Of a stretch of 21,916 nucleotides of DNA, positions 126 to 11,797 are shown in pieces. The stretch lies in contig JAFDWD010001043.1 in the NCBI GenBank assembly GCA_018268695.1, positions 1 to 21,916 of the forward strand, given 5' to 3'. Positions within the stretch are counted from its first letter, which is position 1; each line of letters opens with the position of its first letter. The notes beneath the pieces are model-generated. The model was not told the origin of the DNA and searched no databases. It was given only the letters and a program-made list of their open reading frames with translations. The stretch comes from Actinomycetota bacterium (lineage in GTDB: Bacteria; Actinomycetota; Thermoleophilia; Solirubrobacterales; 70-9). Position numbers and translations under genes: made by a program.

Positions 126-178
126 CCCCCACCCTGCACGCTTGTCTCGCTATGCGAGACAAGCGTGCAGGGTGGGGG
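126..178 (+). repeat. Long palindromic repeat, copy 1 (candidate bidirectional terminator / REP-like element)
   Basis: The two 25-base arms (126-150 and 154-178) are perfectly complementary around a TAT loop. The inner arm reads TGCACGCTTGTCTCGC. It sits between the convergent stops of the thiolase and an SDR gene, so it could stop transcription from both sides, though there is no T-tract. Positions 127-177 are identical to copy 3 at 4642-4692. The asymmetric loop gives an orientation, and all three copies point the same way. Confidence 0.9.
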
Positions 179-3667: not shown

Positions 3668-3715
3668 CCGCAAACTCGGCAATCCCCGCCCCACCCGGGG
3701 GGGCAAAACCCAACC

Positions 3716-3756
3716 CTCTGCACGCTTGTCTCTCCATGCGAGACAAGCGTGCAGAG
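3716..3756 (+). repeat. Long palindromic repeat, copy 2, containing the start codon of the next gene
   Basis: Arms at 3716-3732 and 3740-3756 (17 bases each) match the inner stem of copies 1 and 3. Relative to copy 1 the pair 133/171 (C-G) has become 3717/3755 (T-A), a compensatory change. Two substitutions near the loop turn CGCTATGCG into CTCCATGCG, leaving a T-C mismatch. The ATG at 3736-3738 lies at the tip. Just upstream, 3685-3704 holds a C-run followed by a G-run that may be a weak terminator for the preceding kinase gene. Confidence 0.85.
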
Positions 3757-4641
3757 TTGGGGGAGTTGGCGACGGAACAGCACGGCGTCGTGTCGACGCG
3801 GCAGCTGGCGAGGATCGGGATCAGCCGTAACAGCGCTTGGCTTGGCACCGAGGTGGGACGCCTGCATCGAGTGCATCGGGGCGTGTACGCGGTGGGCCAT
3901 CGTCGCCTGACGTGGAAGGGATGGTGCATGGCCGCGGTGCTGGCCGCCCACCCGGCGAAGGTAAGGCTTGGGCACATGCCGATCGTCGCCAGCCACCTCT
4001 CCGCGGGCCGACTGTGGGGGATCGTCCGATTCGACCCGGAAGCGATCGAGGTCACGGTCCCCAAACGGCGACGATCGCAGAGGCCTTACATAGTCCACCA
4101 GGGTCGGGTGTCACCGGCCGATCGCGCCGTGGTCGACGGGATCCCGGTCACGACTCTCGCGCGGACGTTCTTCGATCTCGCCGAGGGGGCGCGCACGCGG
4201 ACCTTCCAGAAGATGCTCCAGCGAGCCGAAGAGCTCGAGCTCCTGGACCTGGATGAAATCGACGCGACCCTCGTCCGCGCTCCGGCAGGGACGGGCGCCG
4301 CGCTTCGCCGCCAGCTCGAGATCTACCGCCCGGAAGTTGGCGTCATCCGGTCCGACCTCGAGCGCGACTTCCAGCGGCTGGTGACCGAGGCGGGGCTATC
4401 GCGTCCGAGCATGAACTACTTCCTGGCCGGTCACGAGGTCGACGCATATTGGCCGGAGAGCAAACTCGTCGTCGAGCTGGACGTCTTCGAGACGCACGGC
4501 TCGCGTCTCTCCTTCGAGGAGGACCGCAAACGCGACGAGGACCTCCTCCTGCAGGGCATCTCGACCGTCCGCGTCACCGGCCATCGCCTCTACCGCGAAC
4601 CCGAAGAGATCGTCAACCGCCTGAGGAAGCTCCTCCGCTAG
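3736..4641 (+). CDS. AbiEi N-terminal-domain / DUF559 (VSR-like fold) family protein
   Basis: A 301-residue protein. Residues about 8-55 resemble the winged-helix AbiEi antitoxin N-terminal domain (LATEQHGVVSTRQLARIGIS, then RVHRGVYAVGH). The middle holds GIPVTTLARTFFDLAE (135-150). The C-terminal part is DUF559-like: EVDAYWP with D236, VVELD with E247 and D249, H254, then FEEDRKRDEDLLLQGISTVRVT. That arrangement is related to Vsr/PD-(D/E)XK nucleases. Such proteins occur in many copies in actinobacterial genomes and their role is not established, to my knowledge. The ATG at 3736 lies at the tip of the palindromic repeat and has no Shine-Dalgarno site; TTG codons at residues 8 and 11, after a G-rich stretch, are alternatives. 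A second palindrome copy begins directly after the stop codon. Codon choice looks less strictly GC-biased than in neighbours, hinting at transfer. Nuclease activity is an inference. Confidence 0.8.
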   Translation: MRDKRAELGELATEQHGVVSTRQLARIGISRNSAWLGTEVGRLHRVHRGVYAVGHRRLTWKGWCMAAVLAAHPAKVRLGHMPIVASHLSAGRLWGIVRFDPEAIEVTVPKRRRSQRPYIVHQGRVSPADRAVVDGIPVTTLARTFFDLAEGARTRTFQKMLQRAEELELLDLDEIDATLVRAPAGTGAALRRQLEIYRPEVGVIRSDLERDFQRLVTEAGLSRPSMNYFLAGHEVDAYWPESKLVVELDVFETHGSRLSFEEDRKRDEDLLLQGISTVRVTGHRLYREPEEIVNRLRKLLR

Positions 4642-4692
4642 CCCCACCCTGCACGCTTGTCTCGCTATGCGAGACAAGCGTGCAGGGTGGGG
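4642..4692 (+). repeat. Long palindromic repeat, copy 3 (candidate bidirectional terminator)
   Basis: Perfect 24-base arms (4642-4665 and 4669-4692) enclose a TAT loop. It starts at the base after the DUF559 stop codon and ends three bases before the stop of the convergent EthD gene. The sequence is identical over all 51 bases to positions 127-177. There is no T-tract. With copy 2 it brackets the DUF559 gene. Confidence 0.9.
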
Positions 4693-11761: not shown

Positions 11762-11797
11762 CCGCCACCCGGGGCTCCGACGAGCCCCGGGTGGCGG
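11762..11797 (+). terminator. Strong hairpin after the binding-protein gene (partial terminator or mRNA 3' stabiliser)
   Basis: Perfect 16-base arms (11762-11777 and 11782-11797) around a CGAC loop, very GC-rich, with no T-tract. It lies 37 bases past the binding-protein stop and 25 bases before the next gene of the transporter block. Such a position often lets the binding protein be made in excess over the membrane parts. Confidence 0.65.

Follow-up and report, generated by a model that had tools for sequence, protein, structure and literature searches.

Introduction

Short dispersed palindromes are common in bacteria and, to our knowledge, the only dedicated enzymes known for them are the Y1 tyrosine transposases (RAYTs). 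In the excerpted text of one report, RAYT genes are described as having flanking repeats, a cognate repeat abundance tied to the presence of the gene, repeats that change and yet remain palindromic, and a gene that changes faster than its neighbours (PMC2817692). A second report assigns to REP repeats a tag, GTAG or CGTC, on one of their ends (PMC3733652).

The protein encoded at the locus considered here resembles two other described proteins. AbiEi is the antitoxin and autorepressor of the AbiE type IV toxin–antitoxin system. One study describes its binding sites as inverted repeats within its own promoter, reaching 23 bp around a centre of three bases (PMC3985639). The nuclease I-Bth0305I, as stated in an extract of its description, dimerises on nearly 60 bp (PMC3943268).

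In this study, a GC-rich stretch of 21,916 nucleotides (the window), whose relatives are Thermoleophilia/Solirubrobacterales or Actinomycetota drafts, was analyzed with respect to a palindrome that brackets a gene for an AbiEi-like protein with a nuclease-like C-terminus. Gene and palindrome probably constitute a system of the REP/RAYT type built on an unrelated enzyme, in which the palindrome would be the operator and the probable cutting site, with binding, cutting and copying inferred. No account of AbiEi/Vsr-like genes with dispersed palindromes was found among the open-access papers searched, as judged from listings and individual passages.

The gene and its palindrome

The features of the window are as follows.

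127..177, no strand: palindrome copy 1, solitary, with 24-bp perfect arms and a 3-nt loop, between convergent genes
3697..3703, + strand: G-run upstream of the gene's palindrome, identified by eye
3711..3761, no strand: palindrome copy 2, at the gene start, with a perfect 17-bp stem (3716–3756) and a loop (3733–3739) that holds ATG
3736..4641, + strand: gene for a predicted AbiEi-like repressor fused to a Vsr/I-Bth0305I-like nuclease, 301 amino acids (Pfam, PADLOC and fold search)
3736..4329, + strand: predicted AbiEi-fold part, residues 1–198, with Pfam AbiEi_4 at residues 10–53
4351..4638, + strand: predicted Vsr/EDxHD-type nuclease domain, residues 206–301, with E209, D236, E247, D249, H254 and D263 highly conserved
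4642..4692, no strand: palindrome copy 3, beginning at the first base past the stop codon

The palindrome of about 51 bp is present three times. Copies 1 and 3 are identical across 51 nt and give a DNA fold of −34.3 kcal/mol (z = −11.9; none of 200 shuffles as good), and copy 2 is 84% identical to them (z = −7.6). When one 14-nt arm was searched at up to three mismatches, six matches were obtained in the window, all exact and two per copy; shuffled sequences gave a mean of 2.3 matches and reached six or more in 2 of 100 cases. An Rfam scan of the window returned no family. A 16-bp perfect stem at 11762–11797 (CCGCCACCCGGGGCTC) is unrelated in sequence to the three-copy palindrome.

The first-pass annotation had placed the gene between palindrome copies with its start codon at the hairpin tip, and this was borne out: the loop of copy 2 contains ATG 3736, the last base of the stop codon is 4641 and copy 3 follows from 4642. 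Its reading of the first codons as the right arm of the repeat was likewise confirmed in the sequence, the codons CGA GAC AAG CGT GCA after the ATG lying within the right arm of copy 2 and the same six codons, ATG included, recurring in copy 1. We infer that translation starts in the loop; the database entry for the protein begins downstream. The three copies stand as annotated, with the correction that for both copy 1 and copy 3 the adjoining genes converge: copy 1 stands between the end of a + strand gene that we take, from its C-terminal sequence alone, to be thiolase-like and a short-chain dehydrogenase gene on the − strand, and copy 3 between the AbiEi-nuclease gene (+) and an EthD-domain gene (−). 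The G-run closely upstream of the stem recurs, as judged by eye, in many paralogues and is a possible distant Shine–Dalgarno or promoter element.

The encoded protein

Of the earlier label AbiEi/DUF559, the first half was upheld by a Pfam match to AbiEi_4 (E = 4e-8, above the cut-off) and by a PADLOC classification as AbiEi, whereas DUF559 was a sub-threshold match (E = 0.002) and gave way to the Vsr-like REase_MTES_1575, itself below the cut-off in the window protein (E = 2e-5) and matched at E ≤ 0.01 in all 25 aligned family members, the window protein included. In the source records, family members bear names such as 'AbiEi antitoxin', 'very-short-patch-repair endonuclease' or 'hypothetical protein'. 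A fold search with the predicted structure points to an AbiEi repressor fused to an I-Bth0305I/Vsr-type nuclease, in agreement with the winged-helix-like N-terminus and Vsr-like C-terminus (D236, E247, D249) proposed previously. The model has an AbiEi fold, and the predicted C-terminal part presents an EDxHD/Vsr catalytic fold with conserved E, D, H and D residues, whose correspondence was taken from motif order, not from superposition. E209, D236 and E247 are retained in at least 79 of 82 paralogues, a set drawn from 107 genes after 25 that were truncated or cut by the fetched region had been left out. A profile search of the sequences of solved structures gave nothing below E = 0.29, and a search of NCBIfam with the protein matched 0 families.

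The neighbours of the gene encode SDR, APH, EthD and hydrolase proteins. The upstream APH protein has matches in 187 of 232 genomes of the order, with a best identity of 60% among the matches listed. No AbiEii nucleotidyltransferase toxin was recognised beside the gene, and PADLOC gave no hits in all four neighbours tested. The present protein thus differs from AbiEi in its fused C-terminal nuclease, in having no recognised toxin neighbour in the window and in the dispersal of its palindrome. It differs from I-Bth0305I and Vsr in its fusion to AbiEi, with no intron seen and with many dispersed palindromes, instead of one allele, as putative sites. A phage or plasmid origin was rejected, since scans of viral contigs found neither a relative of the protein nor a match to the palindrome pattern and a plasmid search found no match.

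Start hairpins across the gene family

Among the 120 closest homologues listed, 47 start with (M/V)(G/E/R/D/A)(D/N/E)(K/Q/N), 30 of them strictly with (M/V)G(D/N)K; a linker that varies between homologues comes next. These N-terminal residues are shared because their codons form the right arm of a palindrome. In 11 genomes, 3–19 family matches each were found (154 in total, including fragments), from which 106 places, together with the window, were taken for a survey of 107 gene starts. Hairpins were scored as the stem minus 2.5 per mismatch with a loop of 3–12, leaving out L012, which duplicates L032, and, for the gene starts, L015 and L017, which lie outside the 11 genomes (genomes and loci are denoted by G and L numbers). 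A score of at least 10 was reached by 74 of the 107 gene starts versus 9 of 414 background stretches, and a score of at least 8 by 91 of 107 versus 84 of 414; the remaining 33 of 107 genes scored below 10. A strong start hairpin is therefore a family trait in this group of soil bacteria. The trait becomes weaker at greater distance: in other members of the order, 8 of the 20 best loci scored at least 10, and in three of these eight the loop contained a start codon.

Immediately past the stop codon, a palindrome resembling the one at the start was found by hairpin search, with matching by eye, at 11 of 112 loci (L024, L033, L038, L039, L040, L048, L204, L252, L253, L375 and the window), where an apparent lack can also reflect too little sequence past the stop; most loci have a palindrome at the start end only. 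The enrichment at both ends envisaged in the first-pass annotation thus holds for the start and is rarer at the stop.

An in-frame start codon lies in the loop of 61 of the 74 strong hairpins (ATG in 51, GTG in 10), versus an in-frame start in 469 of 2140 random in-gene stretches of similar length; off-frame start codons number seven in all. This anatomy, with a buried start that has no Shine–Dalgarno site directly before it and a G-run one hairpin arm upstream, is what would be seen if translation were made conditional by a long hairpin whose loop holds the start codon and the dispersed copies were incidental. The same control of translation had been offered as an alternative in the first-pass annotation, and the buried start has proved to be conserved. 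However, RNA-level control leaves the dispersed copies and the palindrome after the stop unexplained, 13 of the 74 hairpins lack an in-frame start within their loops, and a leaderless transcript beginning in the loop accounts equally well for the anatomy. We regard it as highly improbable.

Dispersed palindromes cognate to the gene

The stem sequences of paralogues differ widely. For 29 of 36 genes (hairpin score of at least 7.5) in three genomes, about 400 kb of each genome was searched for dispersed palindromes matching the start hairpin of the gene. At a score of at least 10 and a shuffle p of 0.01, the lowest value possible, 17 of the 29 genes paired with a palindrome of their own genome, versus 11 of 58 pairings with other genomes; for 12 of the 29, no cognate copy was found within the roughly 400 kb per genome. 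Examples are L204 in G010 with GATGGGCCGAAAACTCAAGC, L040 and L011 in G007 with TTCGCACTTAGCCACAA and CGACGCTTGTCTTC, respectively, and L026 in G006 with GGCGTTCGTCCTTTGTTC. Within one genome, separate paralogues pair with separate palindrome families.

When the solitary hairpins were taken as the starting point, 7 of 19 in G006 matched genes of their own genome versus one matching genes of the other two genomes, and 13 of 33 versus five did so in G007. The corresponding figures for G010 were 19 of 40 versus 17, a poor discrimination because palindrome families are common to the genomes. Of the hairpins in the census, 24 of 89 lie between convergent genes. A role as ordinary terminators only was judged insufficient, as the stems differ from genome to genome and correspond to the start palindrome of the gene itself.

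Another kind of near-perfect palindrome, exemplified by acagcctgccag / ctggcaggctgt, has a 12-nt loop (L136:6135, L137:10004, L140:13497, L131:13629 and others). Such palindromes occur repeatedly in G010 and G007, mainly with one of two stem types and often in clusters with other palindromes, and no cognate gene for them was found among the paralogues compared.

Copy number by genome

Three palindrome families were counted by pattern, and reversed patterns gave 0 matches throughout. The TTCGCA family (up to three mismatches) is present in 113 copies in G007, 92 in G003, 76 in G009, 48 in G002, 21 in G010 and one in G047, and is absent from 19 of the 25 genomes. All five TTCGCA-rich genomes carry the L040-type gene (L040, L038, L048, L054 and L049), the start palindrome of which is degenerate in G002 and G010. 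One gene, L042 in G005, has a TTCGC-type start palindrome, yet its genome contains 0 pattern matches. The CTTTGT family (up to two mismatches) has several copies each in G001, G002, G003, G004, G008, G009 and G010, with a single copy in G007, one two-mismatch match in G167 and none in the other 223 of 232 genomes. Its cognate gene is present in all seven CTTTGT-carrying genomes, with the start out of frame in G010 and one of two copies degenerate in G002.

Exact matches to the GATGGGCCGAAAAC family number 83 in G010, 54 in G007, 30 in G002, 28 in G008, 20 in G003, five in G009 and one in G001, with none in 8 of 15 genomes. G010 carries a cognate gene and G007 carries one with an early stop, and none was present among the paralogues examined in G002, G008, G003 and G009, which are draft genomes of unstated completeness. 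The copies without a cognate gene are a real exception to the pairing of gene and palindrome. A start palindrome related to this family belongs to L033 in G011, a genome with 0 pattern matches. Palindromes thus track the gene in two of the three families tested, the third having exceptions.

Palindrome families without a detected cognate gene, which occur in some genomes, and further repeat types in the same genomes would be natural if another transposase or replication slippage had mobilised the palindromes and the AbiEi-nuclease genes had merely taken them up as promoters or operators. Against this origin, the Y1 domain (PF01797) was found in none of 11 genomes by a search that was positive in 5 of 14 control genomes and was limited to Y1 among transposase families. 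Furthermore, separate paralogues match separate palindrome families within one genome, which is not expected from a single outside mobiliser. Mobilisation by such an agent is considered very unlikely.

Pairing of the arms

In the GATGGGCCGAAAAC family, the inner 15 nt, which were left free in the search, are paired in 94 of 138 cells when 23 different sequences are taken together, compared with 62.8 ± 5.1 in shuffles (highest of 2000, 77). The TTCGCA family has 318 of 460 cells paired versus 274.9 ± 7.1 in shuffles, and its seventh arm pair is random without covariation (20 of 46 paired). The pairing data fit both a hairpin and two identical half-sites for a dimer, and either could be the reason that the arms pair. 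Many copies of the TTCGCA family in L272–L291 join two different half-types, with C or G at position 7 independently in each arm, as if halves were exchanged.

Orthologous sites

At one convergent spacer, a palindrome is present in G010 and G009, absent from G007, G002 and G001, and replaced by other sequence in G003; G008, where the contig ends, and G005, with 737 nt between the anchors, were uninformative, and the longer spacers of G004, G006, G043, G044 and G047 were left out. A second G010 site is occupied in G002, G003, G007 and G009 by palindromes with different yet paired inner arms and is empty in G008, and a third is occupied in G008 and G009 and empty in G002, G003 and G007. The variants of the palindromes are genome-specific.

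At the L040 locus, G010, G002 and G003 contain the gene, G044 contains a diverged gene and G008 contains a partial one. Sites lacking the whole unit, for which the first-pass annotation had proposed a search, were found at this locus elsewhere in the family: the flanks meet within 5 nt in G006 and within 14 nt in G043. A third such site, in G005, retains 99 nt with the remnant of a gene start, so the empty sites may be losses. In G007 and G003, TTCGCA-type palindromes stand close on both sides of the L040-type gene. In G002 the copy on the start side is about 50 nt upstream, and in G010 both palindromes are degenerate. The identity of the family gene is 70–72% versus 80–86% and 91–96% for the flanking frames. 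No target-site duplication was established. On the simplest reading, the gene is inherited vertically with losses and solitary palindromes turn over faster.

These sites bear on an explanation that sees in the protein an AbiEi-like autorepressor and in the dispersed copies further binding sites (a regulon, decoys or chromosome-organising sites) or bidirectional terminators, the palindromes having spread by selection or unrelated mechanisms and the nuclease serving, for example, in defence. For AbiEi, autorepression through inverted repeats of similar size has been proven (PMC3985639), and PADLOC places the present protein in its class. In addition, the palindromes are intergenic, and the genes on either side converge for the quoted share of census hairpins as well as for copies 1 and 3 of the window. 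However, copying is suggested by the genome-specific variants, by the up to 113 similar copies per genome and by the palindromes gained or lost at orthologous sites, and a role as operator only leaves the near-universal retention of E209, D236 and E247 to be accounted for. This explanation is considered unlikely.

Comparison with REP/RAYT systems and proposed mechanism

The first-pass annotation had drawn a parallel to REP sequences and their RAYT transposases, and the partnership that it proposed between a hairpin repeat and a nuclease-like gene is supported; the gene is not a RAYT. As in the excerpted description of RAYTs, palindromic intergenic repeats are tied to a nuclease gene that is at times flanked on both sides, gene presence is linked to the abundance of the cognate repeat (here in two families, with exceptions in a third), orthologous genes stay in place while the repeats change but remain palindromic, and the gene outpaces its neighbours. 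In contrast, the enzyme here is not Y1/HUH, the repeats are longer, near-perfect palindromes, the gene begins inside the repeat, and flanking on both sides, as in the window, is the exception. Membership of the RAYTs was rejected on the result of the PF01797 search, and the Y1 domain was also absent from the domain lists of the window protein and the 25 aligned members. The system would work like REP/RAYT but is not REP/RAYT: it has no identifiable component related to the known repeat-spreading enzymes and, grouped by logic alone, would be of the REP kind.

In the proposed mechanism, the AbiEi-type winged helix and C-terminal AbiEi fold, fused to a homing-endonuclease/Vsr-type nuclease, would recognise the cognate palindrome of about 50 bp as two half-sites of about 17–25 bp around a short centre. 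Since the size of these palindromes and their short centre are suited to a dimeric fusion protein, the copy at the start codon is most likely the operator, through which the gene would repress itself, and the dispersed copies should also be recognisable by the nuclease. The dispersed intergenic sites would then form a REP-like population kept and spread by the nuclease, which may cut cognate palindromes either as a duplex site or as an extruded hairpin, with repair then filling the break by copying from a palindrome elsewhere. Such cutting and repair would account for the genome-specific inner arms and for their change at orthologous sites; a transposition-like step is an alternative route of spreading. 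The gene itself would be mostly inherited in place, at times flanked on both sides like RAYT genes.

The strongest form of this proposal, a repeat spreader outside the HUH class in which an AbiEi-fused homing-type nuclease targets its own operator palindrome, cuts dispersed copies and overwrites or seeds sites via repair, is a serious possibility that we hold tentatively. If true, it would imply genome-wide concerted evolution of palindromes, with many distinct paralogous enzyme–palindrome pairs in one genome that would represent a natural set of nuclease–site specificities. An unrelated enzyme with the same genomic signature would mean an independent origin; a small protein and a 50-bp substrate would suffice to test the old question of how REP-type repeats arise and are kept, and a function would be assigned to a very large family.

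Other repeats in these genomes

Two further dispersed repeats were observed in G010. The first (L133:3821–3944) is about 122 nt in length with inverted ends (TGAGGGGGCGTGGG...CCCACGCCCCCTCA) and looks like a miniature element. It gave no Rfam or tRNA match, Rfam returning for L133 just a microRNA-family match on a palindrome, far below the cut-off. Its copies in G002, G003, G007, G008 and G009 are mostly 80–94% identical, and the sequence found in the G003 spacer where G010 has a palindrome shares stretches with it, as judged by eye. The second (L133:15137–15290) is about 150 nt in length and is present many times in G007, whereas the matches in G002 and G008 are shorter.
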